Shown: piece after piece, positions 52,450 through 62,683 of the stretch
Numbering within the stretch: the first letter of the stretch is position 1
Layout of the letters: each line of letters starts with the position of its first letter
NCBI RefSeq assembly: GCF_029023725.1
Contig: NZ_CP119075.1
Coordinates: 5,265,501 to 5,329,500, forward strand
DNA: 64,000 nucleotides
DNA from: Synoicihabitans lomoniglobus
GTDB lineage: Bacteria; Verrucomicrobiota; Verrucomicrobiia; Opitutales; Opitutaceae
Direction of reading: 5' to 3'
Translations under genes and position numbers: made by a program
Notes under the pieces: model-generated
The model's database searches: none
What the model was told of the DNA's origin: nothing
The model's input: the letters and a program-made list of their open reading frames with translations, nothing else

Positions 52450-55305
52450 ATGGGACTCGCCTCATTATCGGGGGTAGTCTGGTTGTCGCTGATGAATGCG
52501 ACGTCGGCCGCGGCGCAAAACGCCACCCAGCTGGGCACCACGGCGCTGCAGGAGATGGCGCAGGACCGGATCGAGCGGGCGGCGTTTGCCGAGGCGGTGC
52601 CGTTTCTGAGCGAGCTCGATCGGAGGTTGCGGGAGTCGACTGACAGCACGGCGGTGCGGGCGCGCGAGGGCATTCTCTTTTACTTGGGGCTGGGCAAATT
52701 GCAGCAGGCGAACTTACCCGGGGCGGCGCACACGTTGGGTGAGTTTGTCACCGCTTATCCCGATGCGCCCAATGCCGTGATCGCGCAGATGTATCGTGGC
52801 GATGCGTTTTATTACCAGGGGAGGCTGGCCGACGCGCGGGCGTTGTATGAGGAACTGCGCGCGCGCTACGACCCGACTCGGCTCGATGTCGCGCCACGGG
52901 CCGCCTATTGGGAGCATTACGCGGATTGCGTATATGCGGAGCGCGACTGGGACGCCGGAGTCGAGGTATTCACGGCGATGAAAGCCGCCGCTACTCAGCT
53001 CTTTGATCGCAACACTGCTGACGAAAAACGAGCCAAGGCCGGATCCTATTTGTTGCAGGCGGCAATGGCGCAAAATGACTTCGAGGCGGCCTTGGCCGCG
53101 CTGCCCGATCTGAGTGGGCAATCCGGCCAGGCGCGTTACGATCTCGCGCTCAACCTCGCGCTGATGCGCGGCGGCGACGAGCTCTACGCGGCGGCCCGAC
53201 ATGGTGAAGCGCTTTACTTCTACGAACTGGTGCTGCCGCCCGCGACCTTGCAGGACTTTTGGACGGCGGAGATCGAGCGCGGCGAGGCCGAGAAGGCTCG
53301 GATTGCGGGCATCGATTGGTTCGCGGAACGAACGAATCAAGTGGAGAGCGACCTGGCTCAAGCGAAGGCGCGCTTGGAGCAACTTGGGGTGGTCGGGGCA
53401 TCGAGTGAACCGGTGGAGGAAGAGCACCGGGCGGTGTCCGATTACACCGGCGCGCTGCACTTCCGGATTGCTCGTTGCTACCTTGCTCGCGGACGCACGC
53501 ACGAGGCGTATTGGGCGTTTGCGCGACTGGAAAACACGTCGCGGAAGGAGGTTTCCAGTGCGTCCGATAGTTTCCTGGAAGAAGCCGTTTATGGACAGGT
53601 CAAGATGGCGGCGGCGTGCGGCCGCGATGATCGCGTGCGGTCGGCGGCACGGCGCTATCTGCGCACGGAAACGTTCACCCGTTTCATTGGTGACGTCGGT
53701 TACGAACTGCTGCAGACGGAGGTGCGCGAGGGCAATTTGTTGGCGGTGCGCGAATTGGCGGAGGCGTTCATGGCGCGGGTGCGGCTCGATCCCAATCTGC
53801 AGGAGGCGCCCAAGCTGATCTACCTCGTGGGTTCGACCTTGATGGAGCAGGAGGATCGCATCGGACTGCGCGAACGGTTCGAGCCCATGTTGGCGGAGTA
53901 TCCGGATCGTGGATTCAGCGACGGTCTGGCTTACTGGTTGGGCTTGGTCGAAGTGCTTGACGGAAACTACCCGTCCGCGCTCGCCCATTTTGAAACGATC
54001 ATGCGGGATTACCCCAACGGCGGTTACACGGAGGATGCGCACTACCGGGAGGGGGTCTGCTGGTATGGTCTGTTGAAGTATGGCCGGGCCCGGCAAAAGC
54101 TGGATGGCTTTTTGCAGGACTATCCGGAAAGTCGTTTGGCCAGCGAAGCGTATGCGCTGCTGGGAGATCTGGCTGCGGCAGAAGGGCGCACGGAGGCCGC
54201 CATCAATGCCTACGCGGCGGCGCAGGATGCGGGGGCCCTGTTGAACCCGCCCAACATGGGCTACATCAATCACGCCGTGTTTCAGGCCGGGGAACTGTTC
54301 GCGGCCGCCGCACGTTGGCCCGAAATGGCCGAGTGGTTTGAATCGTATTTGCGGCGCTGGGGCAGCGAAGGTCGGGCGGGCGACGCGATTTATCAGCTCG
54401 GACGCGCGCAAGTGCAGCTCGACCGCAGCGACGCGATGCTCGACGTGTGGATCGAGGCAATTCTGCGCTTTGGCAACGACCCGGCGGACACCGGACCGGA
54501 TCTGATGCTGGCGGAGTTTCCCGAACATTACACGGCCGTGCGCGGCACCTCGCCGGAGGAAGTGTTGCGCAATGCGTTGGCCATCGCGACGTCACAGCGC
54601 CAAACGACGCTGATGCTGCGACTCGGGGCCGCGTTGCGAAGTATTGGCGTGGCAGACGCGAAGCTGCCGCGGGTCACGATTAACAATCTGGATGACGCCA
54701 GCGGGGCGGTGTTGGTGCAGGCAGCTCACGCCGAGCGTGCCCGTGATCCGGCCCTGGCCCTGGCCGCGGCGGAGCGGGCGTTGGCGCGGTCGCCATTTGC
54801 CCCATTTGCTGCCGAGGCGTGGCGATTGGTGGCGGAGATGCGCACGACGGCCGGTGATCGCGTGGCGGCGATCGAAGCATGGCGCAGTTTGGTGGAGAAT
54901 TTTCCCACCTCGCCGCATGCGGTCGAGGCCCGGTTGCGCGAGGGCGACTTACAGCGGGAACGCGGTGCCTACGCCGACGCCATCGCGGCCTACCGGGAAG
55001 TGCTCAAGGTTCGGCAATGGCGGGGGTCGGCGTGGGCGGAGGCGAACTACAAGGTCGGACTCACGCACTTTGAGTCGGGTGACTTCCAAGCGGCGTTCGG
55101 CTTTTGCCAGCGCGTCTACGTGCTTTACGGAGGCGTCGCCCAATGGGCGGCTTCGGCCTACCTCACCAGTGGTCTCGCGTTGGAGCAGTTGAATCGTCCC
55201 GACGATGCGGTGGCGACCTATCGGGAGCTGATCGCGCAGGATCGCCTGCAAACGCAACCCGCCGTGGCCGAGGCCGCGCAACGTCTGGAGGCCTTGGGGA
55301 TATGA
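52450..55305 (+). CDS. Periplasmic TPR-repeat protein (951 residues), first gene of ExbB/ExbD/VWA operon
   Basis: The start at 52450 was chosen because it yields a signal peptide (MGLASLSGVVWLSLMNATSA, cleavage near AAAQ); the frame extends 44 codons further upstream without protein character. The protein consists of TPR/Sel1-like helical pairs throughout, for example FYLGLGKLQQANLPGAAHTL, RARQKLDGFLQDYPESRLAS, and VEARLREGDLQRERGAYADAI near the end. This architecture resembles BamD/YbgF-type scaffolds. It precedes a second periplasmic protein (ATGA overlap at 55302) and the proton-channel genes, so it probably supplies the scaffold of that machine. Confidence 0.82.
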   Translation: MGLASLSGVVWLSLMNATSAAAQNATQLGTTALQEMAQDRIERAAFAEAVPFLSELDRRLRESTDSTAVRAREGILFYLGLGKLQQANLPGAAHTLGEFVTAYPDAPNAVIAQMYRGDAFYYQGRLADARALYEELRARYDPTRLDVAPRAAYWEHYADCVYAERDWDAGVEVFTAMKAAATQLFDRNTADEKRAKAGSYLLQAAMAQNDFEAALAALPDLSGQSGQARYDLALNLALMRGGDELYAAARHGEALYFYELVLPPATLQDFWTAEIERGEAEKARIAGIDWFAERTNQVESDLAQAKARLEQLGVVGASSEPVEEEHRAVSDYTGALHFRIARCYLARGRTHEAYWAFARLENTSRKEVSSASDSFLEEAVYGQVKMAAACGRDDRVRSAARRYLRTETFTRFIGDVGYELLQTEVREGNLLAVRELAEAFMARVRLDPNLQEAPKLIYLVGSTLMEQEDRIGLRERFEPMLAEYPDRGFSDGLAYWLGLVEVLDGNYPSALAHFETIMRDYPNGGYTEDAHYREGVCWYGLLKYGRARQKLDGFLQDYPESRLASEAYALLGDLAAAEGRTEAAINAYAAAQDAGALLNPPNMGYINHAVFQAGELFAAAARWPEMAEWFESYLRRWGSEGRAGDAIYQLGRAQVQLDRSDAMLDVWIEAILRFGNDPADTGPDLMLAEFPEHYTAVRGTSPEEVLRNALAIATSQRQTTLMLRLGAALRSIGVADAKLPRVTINNLDDASGAVLVQAAHAERARDPALALAAAERALARSPFAPFAAEAWRLVAEMRTTAGDRVAAIEAWRSLVENFPTSPHAVEARLREGDLQRERGAYADAIAAYREVLKVRQWRGSAWAEANYKVGLTHFESGDFQAAFGFCQRVYVLYGGVAQWAASAYLTSGLALEQLNRPDDAVATYRELIAQDRLQTQPAVAEAAQRLEALGI

Positions 55306-55424
55306 GATGGCGCTCTTTAGCCGCGGAGGGACGACTTCCAGGTCTTCCGCACGTAGCCTCTCAGCATGCGACGTCGGGGCAGGGCGGACCGGGTGGAACC
55401 GGTCCCTCCGTCGGCGGCTTGCGC

Positions 55425-56441
55425 ATGGTTCGTTTCGTCACGGGTATCGTGCTGGTCATCGCCGGGGGTTCGGTGGCGTGGGCGGCGCCGCTGCGCGCCC
55501 GCATGGGAGACCAGAATCGCACGGTCATGCAGGTGATGGGAATCGATGCCGCGGGTCGCATTCGCCTGCGGCCGGAAGCGACCGATGCCGGTGAGGCGTT
55601 GCTGCCCTTGGACAAGGCACGCGATCTGCGATTCATCCTGCCCGACGATTACCGCGAGGCGCAGCAGCTCATCTTTGCGGGTCGCCATGGCGAGGCGCTG
55701 CTGCGTTTGCGCCGTATCGTGCCGGAGCTCGTGCCTTATGCCGGCATCGCCGGATCCAATGCGGTGCCCGTGGTGCGACGCTACTTTCGGTTGTTGGTCA
55801 GCGAAGGCGAGTGGGCCGATGCGCTCGCGGTGGCATCGAGTTTACCATTCGGGGAAGCGGAAACCGATTTCGTGCCGGAGATCGTGGGATTGGCCCGCGC
55901 TCTGCAGGCGCAAAAGCGAATGAAAGATGTCGCGTGGTTGCTGGAACGTTTGCCGTTGGATACGAGCGCAGGCGCCCACCGTGCGCTCGTGTGGGAACTC
56001 GCCGATGAAATGCGTCGCGAAGGTTTTTGGGCGGAGTCCCAAACCATCTATCAACGTCTGCGTGGCGCTGCGGCGGAGACGGAGCAGTTGTCACTGGATT
56101 TGTTGCTCGCTTACACGGATTGGCATCAAGGCAGCGACCTGCGGGCGAGTGCGCTTGTGACCATGGCGGAGATGCCGACGACGAATGCCGGCGACGGCGC
56201 TCTCTTCCGCCTGTTGGCCGGACGCGTGCGTTTGGCGCAGGATGATCCGGCGGGGGCATTGGACGTTCTGAGCGAGGGTTTGATCGGGATCGATGGCGCC
56301 AGCGAGTGGCGGGTCGAGCTCACCGCCGTGATGGCGTCGGCGTATCGAGAAACCGGCGACGATGATATCGCCGCCGGCATCGAACGCGATCTGCGTCGCC
56401 TTTATCCTGACTCCCGCTGGCTGCCACATTCCCCTGATTGA
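55425..56441 (+). CDS. Periplasmic TPR-like protein of the ExbB/ExbD/VWA operon
   Basis: 338 residues from the ATG at 55425, which gives a signal peptide (MVRFVTGIVLVIAGGSVAWA). An alternative ATG at 55302 overlaps the previous stop by 4 bases and would add 41 residues before the signal segment. The first mature residues (RMGDQNRTVMQVMGIDAAGRIRL) look like a small beta module, followed by helical pairs of TPR type (GRHGEALLRLRRIVPEL, FWAESQTIYQRLRGAA, AMLA-like repeats to the end). No known family is certain. It is 7 bases before the ExbB gene, so a structural partner in the same complex is likely. Confidence 0.72.
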   Translation: MVRFVTGIVLVIAGGSVAWAAPLRARMGDQNRTVMQVMGIDAAGRIRLRPEATDAGEALLPLDKARDLRFILPDDYREAQQLIFAGRHGEALLRLRRIVPELVPYAGIAGSNAVPVVRRYFRLLVSEGEWADALAVASSLPFGEAETDFVPEIVGLARALQAQKRMKDVAWLLERLPLDTSAGAHRALVWELADEMRREGFWAESQTIYQRLRGAAAETEQLSLDLLLAYTDWHQGSDLRASALVTMAEMPTTNAGDGALFRLLAGRVRLAQDDPAGALDVLSEGLIGIDGASEWRVELTAVMASAYRETGDDDIAAGIERDLRRLYPDSRWLPHSPD

Positions 56442-56448
56442 TGATGCC

Positions 56449-57210
56449 ATGAATACCTCCCCGCCTCCTTGGATGACTTATACGCGCTGGCTGCTGCTGC
56501 TCGGTCTCGTGCCAGTGTTTTTGCATGCGCAGGAAACCGCTACATCAGCGGCGACCGCGAGCGGTGGTGACGTGAGTCTCGGCCAACTCTGGGCGCAGGG
56601 TGGTTGGGCGATGTATCCGCTGGCGTTCTTCTCGGTGGCGGCGTTTGGCCTGATTCTTTACAACGCTCTCAGCGTGCGCGAAGGCCCGTTGTTGCGCCCG
56701 GACGTGTCGGACCAGTTGCACGAGCTTTTGGCTAAGGGCGATGTCTCGGCGGCCCAAACCGTCTGCGAGGAAAACCCTTGTTTGGTCGCCAATGTCACGC
56801 GGGCCGGCTTGGTGCGGGTGAAGCCCGGCGATTACGACGCCGAGGCGGTGGAGAAGGGCATGGAGGAAGCCTCGGTCGAGGAGATCGCCGGACCGTTTGG
56901 GGTGATCAGCTACCTGTCAATTTTGGCGACACTGGCACCGATGGTCGGCATGCTCGGCACGGTTTCGGGTATGATCAAAGCGTTCCGCAACATCGCACTC
57001 GGGGGCATGGGTAAACCGGAGCTGTTGGCCGACAATATATCGGAGGCGCTCATTACCACGGCGGTCGGATTGGTCGTGGGTATCCCGGCGATGTTCGCGT
57101 TCTTCTTTTTCAAGAATCGCTACGCGCGACTGACCTCGCGGCTGGCGCGAATTTGCGGCGATCTGCATCACGCGCTGACGCATGCGATGCGCCAGAAAGC
57201 CCAGCCCTGA
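56449..57210 (+). CDS. exbB: ExbB/TolQ/MotA-type proton channel subunit
   Basis: 253 residues from the ATG at 56449. It has an N-terminal signal-like helix (WLLLLGLVPVFLHA), then the first channel helix (WAMYPLAFFSVAAFGLILYNAL). The diagnostic channel pair follows: YLSILATLAPMVGMLGTVSGMIKAF (conserved LAPMLGLLGTVxGM pattern) and ITTAVGLVVGIPAMFAFFFFKNR. It makes the pentameric proton channel with ExbD/TolR. It is 7 bases after the periplasmic protein gene and 12 before the first ExbD. Confidence 0.93.
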   Translation: MNTSPPPWMTYTRWLLLLGLVPVFLHAQETATSAATASGGDVSLGQLWAQGGWAMYPLAFFSVAAFGLILYNALSVREGPLLRPDVSDQLHELLAKGDVSAAQTVCEENPCLVANVTRAGLVRVKPGDYDAEAVEKGMEEASVEEIAGPFGVISYLSILATLAPMVGMLGTVSGMIKAFRNIALGGMGKPELLADNISEALITTAVGLVVGIPAMFAFFFFKNRYARLTSRLARICGDLHHALTHAMRQKAQP

Positions 57211-57222
57211 GCGGTTACGACG

Positions 57223-57639
57223 ATGAAGCTCTCCACGATCGGCACCGACGACGCGCGTTTCGATATGACGCCGATGATGGACATCGTGTTTCAGTTGATC
57301 GCGTTCTTCATGATCGTCGCGACTTACGTGACGCGCGAAAAAGTGGAGGTGGATTTGCCCTTGGCCGTGAATGCGGCGATCGCGGAAAACCAGCAGGACC
57401 GGGCGCTCATTTCGATCTCGATTGATGGGCAAGTGTGGGCGGGTTCGCGGTCGGTTTCGCTCGACGAACTCGCGACCACGGTGAGCACGTGGATTGCGGA
57501 CAACGGCGAAACCAAGATCGTGATCCGCGCCGACCGCTCCAACAGCTACGGATTGGTCAAGCAGGTCATGAAGATCTGCCGCGATGCCGGTATCGCCGAC
57601 ATTATCTTCTCCTCCTTCCAAACGGAGGGCGGCGGATGA
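57223..57639 (+). CDS. exbD: ExbD/TolR family protein, first copy
   Basis: 138 residues. Short cytoplasmic N-terminus, one transmembrane helix MMDIVFQLIAFFMIVATYV whose Asp in the TPMMDIVF motif is the proton carrier, and the periplasmic domain with VDLPLAVNAA, ISIDGQVW and the KIVIRADRSNSYGLVKQVM segment typical of ExbD dimers. It works with ExbB to convert proton flow to motion of a partner protein. A repeat element separates it from the second ExbD gene. Confidence 0.92.
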   Translation: MKLSTIGTDDARFDMTPMMDIVFQLIAFFMIVATYVTREKVEVDLPLAVNAAIAENQQDRALISISIDGQVWAGSRSVSLDELATTVSTWIADNGETKIVIRADRSNSYGLVKQVMKICRDAGIADIIFSSFQTEGGG

Positions 57640-57669
57640 ACCTGAGGCTGAAGCGGAATCGGAGATTGC

Positions 57670-57766
57670 CCACGAAACACACGAAAACACACGAAACGGT
57701 CAGCCTGAATCCGAACCGAGATTATCCGCTTACGGGGCTTTCGTGTTATTTCGTGTATTTAGTGGG
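57670..57766. repeat. CACGAAA-type palindromic element inside the operon
   Basis: Left arm (about 57671-57697) has three CACGAAA units; right arm (about 57739-57764) has the inverted TTTCGTG units, ending in TAGTGG. It fills the gap between the two exbD genes. Related arms border the elements at 59579-59963. Confidence 0.7.
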
Positions 57767-57793
57767 GAAAAATTTCAGTGAGGAGTGGTCACG

Positions 57794-58228
57794 ATGAGGA
57801 CTAAGCGTGACCTGTTTGCGGAGGAGGAGGGGTTCTCTTTGGACTCGATGTTGGACATCGTTTTTCTGCTGTTGATCTACTTCATGGTGACGGCGGCGTT
57901 TGTGAAGGAAGAGGCCGATATCAGCATGTCGTTGCCCAGTCGGGTGGAGCAGGACGAGCCGCTCGATATGCCCGAAGAACAGGTCCTGGATATTCTGGGC
58001 GACGGCACGATCCTGCTCAACGGCCAACCTTTCGATACGCCCACCAGCCCGGACATGCCGCAACTGACGCGCACCTTGACGCGGTTTCGCCAGGCCGCCG
58101 CCGATGCGCAAGTTCCGGCTTTTATTGTGGTGCAACCGGAGGACGATGCGCGCCACCAACGCATCATCGATGTGCTCAACGCGTGTGCGGTCGCGAAGAT
58201 TTCTCTCGTGTCCTTCAACCTCGAATGA
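57794..58228 (+). CDS. exbD: ExbD/TolR family protein, second copy
   Basis: 144 residues from the ATG at 57794 (AGGAG 8 bases upstream). One transmembrane helix with the proton-carrier Asp (SMLDIVFLLLIYFMVTAAFV) and a periplasmic domain with SLPSRVEQDEPLDMPEEQVL and FIVVQPEDDARHQRIIDVLNAC. It is too different from the first ExbD to be a recent duplicate, which suggests a heterodimer. Eight bases separate it from the VWA gene. Confidence 0.9.
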   Translation: MRTKRDLFAEEEGFSLDSMLDIVFLLLIYFMVTAAFVKEEADISMSLPSRVEQDEPLDMPEEQVLDILGDGTILLNGQPFDTPTSPDMPQLTRTLTRFRQAAADAQVPAFIVVQPEDDARHQRIIDVLNACAVAKISLVSFNLE

Positions 58229-58235
58229 CGTCGCG

Positions 58236-59561
58236 ATGTCGACCGTAAGCAAACGTCCGCGCAGCACACTCTTTTGGGTGATCGTGATCAGTGCGGGCGC
58301 GCATCTGCTCGTGGGCGCGCTGGTCGCGTCGTGGAAAATCTATCGCTACACGTCGCCGCCGGAGGCGACCTTTTCGTCTCCGCCGCCGGCCGCGCGGGTC
58401 CCACCGGCCAATTTGGAATACCGCGTCGCGATGCAGCAGTTGCAGCAGCAAAGCCAGCGACCGCCGAGCCAGACCGCCGGGCAGGTCGATAGCTTGCTCA
58501 ACCAATCGTTGGACAGTTTGGACAGCCCGAGCGGCGGCGCGTTTGGCACGTCGGCGCTGGCGGGAACGCCCGTGGTCGTGAGCGCAGGAACAGGGCGACT
58601 TGGTCGCTTGAGCGGAGGTGGCGGGGGGATGAATTTCGGCGCCTCGGCCGTGGATTTTTTTGGGATCAAAAAGCAAGGCGAGCGCGTCGTCTTCATCGTC
58701 GATGCGGGCGCATCCATGGTGGAACCGGAGCGCGGTGATTTGCCCGGTTATGAGCGGGTCAAAGCGGAGCTCGTGAAGATGGTCGAAGGCCTGTCGCCCG
58801 GCACGTTTTTCAACATCATTGTATTCGAGCGCGACGTGGATCTCTACGCGCCGCGCATGGTGGTGGCGACGGCTGACAACACCTCGCAAGTCGCGGCGTG
58901 GATCGCGCCGTATTGGCGACTTTCCAACGGCAAGATCGTCGAGCGGGGCACCTATCGAAAAAACTACGCGCCGCAGCTCATTGATTGGAACGGCGCCGGT
59001 GGCAGTTCACGCATGGATCTGGCGCTGGCAGCGGCATTGGAGTTGCGGGCCGACTTGATCTTCATGATCACCGATGGCACCCCGTCGATTCGCCAAGGGC
59101 GCAAAGCGAGTGAGGACGAACGGTGGCGTCGGCGGGTGGACAAATACGACGAAGAGCGCGCCCGTTACGAAGCCAGCGACAAAGGGCAACGCGAGATGGT
59201 GGCCTACGAAAAGGAGCGCGCGGCATGGCAGGCGGCACGAGACAAAGTCCGGGCGGAGCGGGCGGCCCAAGGCCTGCCGCCGATCGTGCGCGAAGGCGGC
59301 TCGCGCGGAGCACCCTCGCGGCCGGGACCGTCGCGTCCGAGCCGCCCCACGTCGTATTACGATCTGGACGAATTGCAGCGTTGGGTGCGTCGGCGAGCGA
59401 GTGCGCTTTACGAGAGCAACGGGGGCGCGCCGCCCAGTCTGAGTGTCGTGGGTTACTCGCCCAACGCGAGGGGCACCGCCGTCATCGAGGCGTTGGCCAA
59501 AACCTTTCCCGACGGCACGAGTCGCGTGATGGGCGCCTTCGACGCGAGCCAGACCAACTGA
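58236..59561 (+). CDS. VWA protein with a TonB-like SxxxH membrane helix
   Basis: 441 residues from the ATG at 58236. One transmembrane helix (about 12-32, WVIVISAGAHLLVGALVAS) contains Ser19-x-x-x-His23, the motif by which TonB interacts with ExbB/ExbD. A Pro-rich and Gln-rich linker (PPPAARVPP, QLQQQSQRPPSQ) leads to a VWA domain. That domain has VVFIVDAGASMV (a DxGxS version of the MIDAS loop), SSRMDLALAAALEL and LIFMITDGTP. A charged helical insertion of about 110 residues (residues 283-395, KYDEERARYEASDKGQRE and so on) splits the VWA fold before the last strand PSLSVVGYSP. The usual TonB C-terminal domain is absent. It is the last gene of the operon. Confidence 0.85.
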   Translation: MSTVSKRPRSTLFWVIVISAGAHLLVGALVASWKIYRYTSPPEATFSSPPPAARVPPANLEYRVAMQQLQQQSQRPPSQTAGQVDSLLNQSLDSLDSPSGGAFGTSALAGTPVVVSAGTGRLGRLSGGGGGMNFGASAVDFFGIKKQGERVVFIVDAGASMVEPERGDLPGYERVKAELVKMVEGLSPGTFFNIIVFERDVDLYAPRMVVATADNTSQVAAWIAPYWRLSNGKIVERGTYRKNYAPQLIDWNGAGGSSRMDLALAAALELRADLIFMITDGTPSIRQGRKASEDERWRRRVDKYDEERARYEASDKGQREMVAYEKERAAWQAARDKVRAERAAQGLPPIVREGGSRGAPSRPGPSRPSRPTSYYDLDELQRWVRRRASALYESNGGAPPSLSVVGYSPNARGTAVIEALAKTFPDGTSRVMGAFDASQTN

Positions 59562-59578: not shown

Positions 59579-59963
59579 AATCACACGAAAAACACGAAAA
59601 CCGTCCGGAGTAAGCGCTCGCCGATTTTTCAACGTAAAGGCGCGAAGAACGCAAAGGATGATCCATCATGGCGCACTTGGTGGCTCGGAGTCTTTGCGTT
59701 AAAACGCTCTCTTCCGTGCGTATGTATTTCGTGTATTTCGTGGTTTGAAAACGAATACGGGGCAAACCGGCTGAAACGAGGTTGACCACGAAAAACACGA
59801 ATTACACGAAAGCCGTCCGAAGGCGGGGCGATGAATTTTGTTCACCGCAAAGGCGCAGAGGTCGCAGAGCTTGATCCCCCATCACGGCGCACCTGATGGC
59901 TCGGCATCATTGCGTTAAAATCCAATCACCAATGTTTGCTGGGTTCGTGTATTTTAGGGTGAT
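59579..59963. repeat. Tandem pair of composite intergenic elements with CACGAA arms
   Basis: The 456-base gene-free stretch 59562-60017 holds two copies (about 59579-59745 and 59785-59963). Both begin with CACGAAAAACACGAA-type units and CCGTCCG, contain a CGCAAAGG/GCGCAGAG-type stretch, a GATC-C-CATCA-GGCGCAC segment, TGGCTCGG and TTGCGTTAAAA, and end in inverted TTCGTGTATTT units. The copies are clearly related but diverged, with no coding potential. Confidence 0.75.
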
Positions 59964-60017: not shown

Positions 60018-60407
60018 ATGCCCACTGTTACGAAACTCCTGCACACGCGGATGCGTGTGAACGATATTGAAGCCACGGTGAAGTTCTACACCGAGGCGCT
60101 CGGCCTGACCGAGTCACGTCGTCATACCTCGCCGCGCGGCGCGCAACTCGTGTTTTTGCAAACGCCCAACAGCGAAGAAGAAATCGAGATCTGCCAGATG
60201 CCCCCCGGCGCCGAGCCCGTGGTCGTGCAACCCGACCTCATGCACCTGGCCTTCCAAGTTGACGACCTGGAAGCCTTCGCCGCCGAGGCGAAAGCCAAAG
60301 GCTACGAACTGAGCGACGGCCCGACCAAAAGCGGCAGCGGCATGATCGCGTTTTTCGATGCGCCGGAAGGCTATGAAGTCGAATTGATCCAGCGCGACAA
60401 AGCCTGA
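60018..60407 (+). CDS. Glyoxalase I-like VOC protein
   Basis: 129 residues from the ATG at 60018. LLHTRMRVNDIEATVKFYTEALGLTES and DLMHLAFQVDDLEAFAAEAKAKG, ending FFDAPEGYEVELIQR, are characteristic of lactoylglutathione-lyase-type VOC proteins. Candidate metal ligands are the His of LLHTRM, Glu in EEEIEIC, His in LMHLAF and Glu in YEVELI, the standard four positions. True GloA proteins are of similar length. It stands alone between a repeat region and the CRISPR locus. Confidence 0.85.
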   Translation: MPTVTKLLHTRMRVNDIEATVKFYTEALGLTESRRHTSPRGAQLVFLQTPNSEEEIEICQMPPGAEPVVVQPDLMHLAFQVDDLEAFAAEAKAKGYELSDGPTKSGSGMIAFFDAPEGYEVELIQRDKA

Positions 60408-60808: not shown

Positions 60809-62207
60809 GTTTGCAATCCGCGCCCCCGCGAAGGGGGCGACGACGAGGAGCGCGCCGGCCTGGGTGGCGGCATTGGGTTTCAATCCGCGCGCCCGTGAAG
60901 GGCGCGACCGCAGACCTCCATGGGGTCCGAGGCCATGGTGATTGTTTCAATCCGCGCGCCCGTGAAGGGCGCGACGCGCCACCGCCGCCGGTCGCATGGC
61001 CTTTTACGTTTCAATCCGCGCGCCCGTGAAGGGCGCGACATGAAGTGTGCCGGTATCACGTCGAATCATGGGGTTTCAATCCGCGCGCCCGTGAAGGGCG
61101 CGACACGCATCGACGCAGAGCGCGAAAAGCTCGTTGCAGTTTCAATCCGCGCGCCCGTGAAGGGCGCGACGCCCAGAACGCGGAGAAAGAGTTGGCGTTT
61201 CGGGAGTTTCAATCCGCGCGCCCGTGAAGGGCGCGACGGTTTCCCGTTCCTTGATGCGGCGGCACTCATTGTTTCAATCCGCGCGCCCGTGAAGGGCGCG
61301 ACCAACCCGGGCGGTTCAACCGGCGGGGTTCGACAGTTTCAATCCGCGCGCCCGTGAAGGGCGCGACGATTCCAACGCGGGCGGCAGCGGCGATTGCTGT
61401 TTCAATCCGCGCGCCCGTGAAGGGCGCGACGGGCGAGGGATTCAATTTCCCTTCCCGCTTCCAGTTTCAATCCGCGCGCCCGTGAAGGGCGCGACCGCCA
61501 TATTATTGTTTCCGGGTCCAGTTGCGGTTTCAATCCGCGCGCCCGTGAAGGGCGCGACCCCTCCACGGCCGCGACCTCGCCCCCTGGGACGTTTCAATCC
61601 GCGCGCCCGTGAAGGGCGCGACGCATCGCGCCTCGGGGGTAAGTGGCTTTAGGCATGTTTCAATCCGCGCGCCCGTGAAGGGCGCGACCACCCTCCACGG
61701 CCGCGACCTCGCCCCCTGGGACGTTTCAATCCGCGCGCCCGTGAAGGGCGCGACGCGAGATCGGCTCGTATAAGCTGTTGTATATGTTTCAATCCGCGCG
61801 CCCGTGAAGGGCGCGACATTTGACACCCCCTCTCCTGTAGGATGACAGGAGTTTCAATCCGCGCGCCCGTGAAGGGCGCGACTGTTCATCGCCGCCGGCC
61901 AGGACAATGGCCGTAAGTTTCAATCCGCGCGCCCGTGAAGGGCGCGACTCACTCGTTCCAACTTCATCGGCGTCTACGTCGTTTCAATCCGCGCGCCCGT
62001 GAAGGGCGCGACCAGTGGGGGCGATCTACGGGTCCATGCGGGCAACGTTTCAATCCGCGCGCCCGTGAAGGGCGCGACTTAAGTAATTCGTTCAGCGACG
62101 TTACGTCGTAGTTTCAATCCGCGCGCCCGTGAAGGGCGCGACTTCGAGCGCGGCCCGGCTGCAGGTGATCGATTTGTTTCAATCCGCGCGCCCGTGAAGG
62201 GCGCGAC
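60809..62207 (-). CRISPR. CRISPR array, type I-C-like repeats (22 repeats, 21 spacers)
   Basis: 21 identical 32-base repeats start at 60877, 60944, 61008, 61073, 61139, 61206, 61271, 61336, 61399, 61464, 61527, 61591, 61657, 61723, 61786, 61851, 61917, 61981, 62047, 62111 and 62176. A 22nd degenerate 33-base repeat is at 60809-60841. The plus-strand repeat begins GTTTCAATCCGCG and ends GAAGGGCGCGAC; in the minus (crRNA) sense it ends ATTGAAAC, the 3' handle of type I-C, and has a CGCGCCC/GGGCGCG hairpin with loop TTCAC. Spacers are 31-35 bases. The degenerate repeat at the left marks the old end; the leader side is at 62207, towards cas2. Spacers 61559-61590 and 61689-61722 share 32 bases. 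Confidence 0.97.
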
Positions 62208-62392
62208 TCGGGATTTCGAACTTATTGACTGTCAAAGAGCAAGGTTCGGGTTTGCGCGAACCTTCAAAATTAGGACTAGCGGGGACGCTGTGCGCGCAAA
62301 TGGGACAACGAAAGATCCTACATCCGCGTCGTTTATGCGAATCGCGAACCGGCGGCGGATGGCGTGGCCGCTGGGGGTTCGCGGTTAGTTTC
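62208..62392 (-). promoter_or_regulatory. CRISPR leader
   Basis: 185 bases between cas2 and the youngest repeat. It contains an 8-bp palindrome (AAGGTTCG 62241-62248 and CGAACCTT 62257-62264) and, on the minus strand, a TTGACA box at 62230-62235, about 25 bases before the first repeat. The palindrome could bind a leader protein or act as a small transcript hairpin. Confidence 0.6.
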
Positions 62393-62683
62393 TTATACCA
62401 GCAGGGGGCCGTCGATGTCGTAGCCGGCTTTGGCTCCGTGGTGATCGACTTTGCGCTGCCAGTTGGACCCGAGGTGGTAAAATCGCAGGCTGTCGTGACG
62501 AGGGTCAATCAGGTCGATGAGCTTTTGTTTCAACAGCACGAATTGGGCGGGGTCGAGTTGACATTCGAAGACGGAGTTTTGCACGCGTTGGCCACGATCC
62601 TTGCAGGCTTTCGCTACCCGGCGCAGGCGTTTGGTGCCGGATGGGGTGCTGGTGGCGACGTCGTAGGTGATGAGCACATACAT
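62393..62683 (-). CDS. cas2: CRISPR-associated endoribonuclease Cas2 (type I-C)
   Basis: 96 residues, normal for type [22 protein letters not shown] has the conserved metal Asp in [22 protein letters not shown] and RFYHLGSNW are typical for this subtype. Cas2 is the structural centre of the Cas1-Cas2 spacer integrase. It lies 27 bases after cas1 and ends directly before the leader. Confidence 0.96.

Follow-up and report, generated by a model that had tools for sequence, protein, structure and literature searches.

The window, a 64,000 nt stretch of a closed genome of 5.93 Mb (its nearest named relatives being Opitutaceae, according to a single-protein scan that returned four named Opitutaceae/Verrucomicrobia loci), carries six co-directional genes at 52450-59561, encoding two TPR proteins (TPR1 and TPR2), an ExbB/TolQ-family protein, two ExbD/TolR-family proteins (ExbD1 and ExbD2) and a VWA protein (Table 1). 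The two TPR proteins upstream of the motor genes were originally predicted to be periplasmic; in agreement, both have signal-like N-termini by eye, with strong TPR matches for TPR1 and weak ones for TPR2. TPR1 additionally matches the NCBIfam family tol_pal_ybgF (8.2e-34), and its open reading frame extends upstream to 52318; the start at 52450 places the signal-like sequence at the N-terminus. Similarly, ExbD2 may start at a GTG codon at 57785, which would shorten the gap between exbD1 and exbD2 from 154 to 145 bases. This gap contains a short repeat element (CACGAAAAACACGAA), found at 57671-57764 and again downstream of the operon at 59584-59810, with six near-matches versus 0.16 expected. 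Further downstream are a glyoxalase (VOC) gene at 60018-60407 (PF00903, 3.4e-21) and a CRISPR array at 60810-62210 with about 22 repeats (GTTTCAATCCGCGCGCCCGTGAAGGGCGCGAC), accompanied by a Cas2-like open reading frame on the minus strand (62393-62683, named by eye); two spacers of the array, near 61567 and 61699, look alike.

Table 1. Features of the six-gene operon, with positions numbered from the first nucleotide of the window.
Feature	Position	Strand	Evidence or remark
TPR1, large TPR protein, predicted periplasmic	52450..55305	+	TPR_16 1e-19, TPR_6 1.2e-19
TPR2, second TPR-like protein	55425..56441	+	Weak TPR matches (E about 0.01); signal-like N-terminus (by eye)
ExbB/TolQ-family protein	56449..57210	+	PF01618, E 1.3e-26
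ExbB Ser62, in TM1	codon 56632-56634	+	Column co-varying with VWA His23
ExbD1, first ExbD/TolR-family protein	57223..57639	+	PF02472 6.8e-25; channel Asp kept
ExbD2, second ExbD/TolR-family protein	57794..58228	+	PF02472 1.8e-17; channel Asp kept
VWA protein, 441 aa	58236..59561	+	VWA_3 5.2e-5, below Pfam cut-off
Ser19-Ala-Gly-Ala-His23, TonB/TolA-type SxxxH	58290..58304	+	Ser19 codon 58290-58292, His23 codon 58302-58304
Helical hairpin within VWA domain, residues 291-344	59106..59267	+	Model

VWA homologues and their surroundings were collected within the order, across the phylum and in one class, and in the loci sampled in this way the six-gene operon is kept throughout the phylum. Several comparisons below use a motor-adjacent set, made up of 59 operons in which 62 VWA copies adjoin one ExbB and a pair of ExbDs. 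Within this set, TPR1 is present upstream of 59 of the 62 copies, and a TPR2 homologue occupies the corresponding place in 58 of 62.

The AlphaFold2 model of the VWA protein (mean pLDDT of 78.6) consists of a single N-terminal helix (residues 10-39), a low-pLDDT linker rich in Pro/Gln and Gly (residues 74-132), and VWA elements starting from about residue 137. The fold is also backed by Foldseek, which matches the model to VWA domains of solved structure. These results agree with the expected Pro/Gln-rich linker after the helix and with a VWA domain standing in place of the TonB C-terminal domain; in particular, Pfam finds only VWA_3 in the window protein, and no TonB/TolA C-terminal domain was found there. 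The model also contains a helical hairpin inside the VWA domain, whose two helices (291-313 and 315-344) exceed a pLDDT of 80 over most of their length. In 54 of the 62 copies, 89-149 aa lie between the positions of window residues 284 and 397; the remaining 8 have at most 30 aa there, and among these L068 10950-11798 is a truncated open reading frame. The MIDAS motif DxSxS is absent from the window VWA protein, which has D156-A-G-A-S instead; it is canonical in 30 of 62 family members.

The N-terminal helix carries the predicted Ser19-x-x-x-His23 motif, whose His is strongly kept among motor-adjacent homologues (59/62) and whose Ser is kept less so (52/62). The original prediction would have been refuted by a lack of SxxxH conservation among homologues, and these counts do not show such a lack. 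Across an alignment of 24 homologues with 17-78% identity, His23, Asp156 and Phe192 are the sole invariant columns. Moreover, among 295 N-terminal hydrophobic helices from the fetched loci, a rough background count made on open reading frame proxies, nearly all occurrences of SxxxH belong to the VWA family, with one clearly unrelated protein, an alpha-amylase. The invariance of His23, the retention of His and Ser in motor-adjacent copies, and the rarity of the motif outside the family together indicate that SxxxH did not arise by chance. The Leu and second Ser of the longer SHLS motif are absent from the window protein, which has Val30 and Lys34 at these positions; across the family, the Leu column contains Leu in 12 of 62 copies and Ser is not among the common residues at the second Ser column. 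Both positions are less conserved in Ton as well (Celia et al. 2025, PMC12215075).

Two sets of related proteins were encountered during this survey. Adjoining a VWA transducer gene, two open frames of 635 and 672 aa without a Pfam match (L181 149-2164, minus strand; L186 6600-8504, plus strand) have SxxxH in a hydrophobic helix and are possible further transducers. In addition, loci L083-L090, L093-L095 and L098 encode related shorter VWA proteins with Ala/Gln replacing Ser/His, and in most of these loci no motor gene was detected nearby.

The two ExbDs were expected to be distinct proteins, and both their PF02472 matches and their phylogeny bear this out: ExbD1 and ExbD2 form reciprocally separate clades with a support of 98, their order is always ExbD1 followed by ExbD2 in the 59 operons, and the channel Asp is found in both ExbDs of 59/59 operons. 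One old duplication followed by joint retention is therefore supported, and the sequences suggest that ExbD1 and ExbD2 pair as a heterodimer. The heterologous nature of the two tolR genes has already been noted (Williams-Jones et al. 2025, PMC12204202).

Williams-Jones et al. (2025, PMC12204202) described proteins of the PVC group that consist of a transmembrane helix, a linker and a vWA domain, that carry an SHLS motif, and whose genes lie downstream of TPR, tolQ and a heterologous pair of tolR genes; their AF3 models place these vWA transducers at the TonB/TolA docking site, via the conserved His, and according to the same study no phenotype of vWA force transducers is known. The original prediction mentioned ExbB/ExbD/VWA neighbourhoods as annotated genes without a described function. 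Its central idea had already been published, with AF3 models; literature searches beyond that study found no described function. The window operon belongs to the first class of vWA force transducers in this work. It shares with that class a single N-terminal transmembrane helix with the Ser and His of the motor-binding motif (Ser19/His23), a Pro-rich low-pLDDT linker followed by a globular vWA C-terminal domain, and the synteny of TPR, tolQ-like and two heterologous tolR-like genes, and it differs from the class in nothing of kind. The present analysis adds to the published description a second conserved TPR-like gene, the counts of Ser and His, the two clades of ExbDs, the covariation of the ExbB Ser with the VWA His, and the hairpin inside the VWA domain.

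The second class in the same study consists of transpore vWA proteins, and by analogy the window helix might enter the ExbB/TolQ pore instead of ExbD and rotate there. Such a class does exist for other vWA proteins (PMC12204202), but its members have no neighbouring ExbD/TolR and carry a pore Asp in the helix, whereas the present operons contain two Asp-bearing ExbDs in 59/59 cases and the window helix (residues 10-39) has no Asp, making a pore-entering helix highly improbable here.

Compared to the TonB and TolA systems, the window operon shares the ExbB/TolQ and ExbD/TolR homologues, the SxxxH helix, the disordered linker and an aligned ExbB/TolQ Ser; in contrast, a VWA domain replaces the TonB/TolA C-terminal domain, the two ExbDs are different from each other, the ExbB has no Trp at the Trp38 position, and there are TPR partners. 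A closer comparison is available inside the same genome, where an ExbB-ExbD-ExbD-TonB-TPR operon (L202) likewise combines one ExbB, two ExbDs, an SxxxH protein and a TPR protein, but there the SxxxH protein has a TonB_C domain at its end (PF03544, 7.9e-22). The presence of this canonical operon, together with 28 TonB_C matches, indicates that the window operon is not its genome's TonB, and the idea that the operon substitutes for TonB was rejected for this genome. As to a replacement of Tol-Pal, a search of the window genome for TolB_N found none; this check says little because only 3 of 41 family members have TolB_N, with the operon present or absent.

The Agl-Glt system of Myxococcus is a force-generating gliding machinery whose VWA protein is CglB. 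It has in common with the window operon one TolQ-like protein, two TolR-like proteins, TPR proteins and a VWA protein; however, CglB acts as an adhesin in the outer membrane and does not dock on the motor as a transducer (see also PMC12204202).

Cryo-EM structures have located the contacts between transducers and their motors. In particular, TonB Ser16/His20 are reported to contact ExbB Ser34/Trp38, and TolA His22 to contact TolQ Ser28/Trp32 (Celia et al. 2025, PMC12215075). The original prediction held that models placing the VWA helix away from ExbD would speak against coupling. Since TonB and TolA dock on TM1 of ExbB/TolQ in the membrane, and not on ExbD (PMC12215075), a helix lying away from ExbD would not refute the coupling. 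According to an alignment of the family profile with the solved TolQ, Ser62 of the window ExbB corresponds to the Ser of SxxxW, equivalent to E. coli ExbB Ser34 and TolQ Ser28, and the canonical ExbB of the window genome (L001) aligns likewise at this column. At the position of the second TonB contact, ExbB Trp38, the family has Val, Phe, Ile or Leu and not Trp. The Ser62 column was selected from the published contacts (PMC12215075), ahead of knowing which operons were without Ser.

Across 95 operons with a readable ExbB/VWA pair, 91 have both Ser and His, one has Asn with the His kept (L189), and the three adjacent operons without His are also without the ExbB Ser, having Asn with Tyr (L187), Ala with Leu (L190) and Phe with Thr (L183). 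The association is strong when relatedness is ignored (Fisher p 2.9e-5). The three losses of His are separate on the VWA tree, where L189 is the sister of L187, fitting a stepwise change.

Two other lineages, f16 and f2, lack the His and have the VWA gene apart from the motor. In f16 genomes, TPR1-TPR2-VWA and ExbB-ExbD-ExbD are found at different loci, the ExbB residue is Ala or Gly in 11/11, and the VWA residue is Gln or Met in 12/12; the possibility that these genomes had lost the motor was rejected, as the ExbB-ExbD-ExbD operon is present at another locus. In f2, whose VWA proteins are distant, the ExbB residue is non-Ser in 8/8 and the VWA residue is Asn in 7/7 readable sequences. In both lineages VWA and motor are paired by their occurrence in one genome, with no shared operon, so that the pairing is assumed. 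When joint loss was predicted for them, the sequences already known were those of G121 (f2) and of three f16 VWA proteins; the prediction was borne out in all later sequences, comprising seven f2 motors, six f2 VWA proteins and nine f16 VWA proteins. Several f2 VWA proteins (L096 and L286-L292) have a long stretch before the helix that appears DNA-binding- or transposase-like by eye, with no Pfam match in L096. A VOC gene similar to that downstream of the window operon lies after ExbD2 of an f2 motor operon that has no VWA gene (L108 5217-5627, minus strand).

Among well-conserved columns, the joint change is specific to the two residues. Nineteen of 251 ExbB columns reach at least 95% conservation in operons with the His, and of these Ser62 alone is changed in all His-less lineages (the three adjacent operons, f16 and f2). 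In the VWA protein, 17 of 250 columns reach at least 75% conservation, and His23 alone is changed in every one of these lineages. The conservation thresholds were chosen by us; the ExbB result also held at 85%, and the VWA result held at 75, 85 and 95%. On the best ExbB tree, Ser and His each change five times, while the branches with strong support require no more than two to three changes for the joint label; an independent-pairs test had no power to reach significance with so few events. Overall, the covariation of the His with the ExbB Ser supports a docking of the VWA protein through its His.

Joint loss could also arise if coupling were decaying in the His-less lineages, with selection relaxed on both partners and no direct contact between the residues; in two of the lineages with joint loss, the VWA gene has moved away from the motor. 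However, L183, L187 and L190 keep all six genes, their order and both channel Asp residues; no other well-conserved column of ExbB or VWA is lost in all of them, whereas a general decay would spread wider; and L189 beside L187 fits a stepwise change. We consider decay unlikely. A relaxation limited to the docking site and a re-wiring of the interface look alike in covariation data.

Separation from the motor does not by itself remove the His. Many orphan VWA copies without an adjacent motor keep it, so the proposal that departure of the VWA gene from the motor operon always costs the His was rejected, and a pair test of motor adjacency against the His found nothing. This retention would also be expected if the conserved His served another role, for example in metal binding or VWA folding, with the operon neighbours never touching it. 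Against such a role, the loss of the His goes along with change at a single well-conserved ExbB column, the one that aligns with the docking site known from TonB and TolA, and the genomes of nine sets of orphan copies contain a close motor elsewhere; a role of the His apart from the motor is accordingly quite improbable. In those nine genomes, where the orphan copies bear the His, the ExbB Ser of the close motor is kept in 9/9, so that sharing of a motor in trans is possible.

Taken together, it is likely, judging from sequence comparisons, that the VWA protein is a force transducer that docks on an ExbB/ExbD proton motor as TonB docks on ExbB, and that would transmit the motor's motion. The inner-membrane motor would consist of an ExbB pentamer, by homology, and probably a heterodimer of ExbD1 and ExbD2, a stoichiometry that we infer. 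The monotopic VWA protein would place its N-terminal helix on the rim of the pentamer at TM1, with His23 against Ser62. By analogy with Ton and Tol, ExbD would be set in motion as protons pass the aspartates of ExbD1 and ExbD2, and through the flexible linker this motion would reach the hairpin-bearing VWA domain in the periplasm. The VWA domain may then act on a partner in the periplasm or at the outer membrane, the simplest candidates being TPR1/TPR2 through a putative VWA-TPR contact. The original prediction that proton flow moves the VWA domain is thereby supported with regard to the coupling of helix and motor, through the covariation of the His and the ExbB Ser; the movement of the VWA domain itself is what we infer.

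A bolder proposal, to which we give an even chance, is that this interface was abandoned or rebuilt on several occasions without damage to the motor (in lineages such as f16, f2 and the operons of L183, L187 and L190, which keep the ExbD aspartates), and that the two ExbDs form an obligate heterodimer. If true, such lineages would be a natural series of a force transducer gaining and losing its motor.

The published case for vWA transducers rests on synteny, the motif and AF3 models, without a phenotype. Several lineages have lost the His and the ExbB Ser together, and this gives the coupling a separate line of support from sequence. It also singles out two residues, and a number of natural mutants, through which the coupling becomes directly testable. 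Ton, Tol, Mot and Agl would then be joined by another, widespread system that does work at the envelope driven by the proton motive force.
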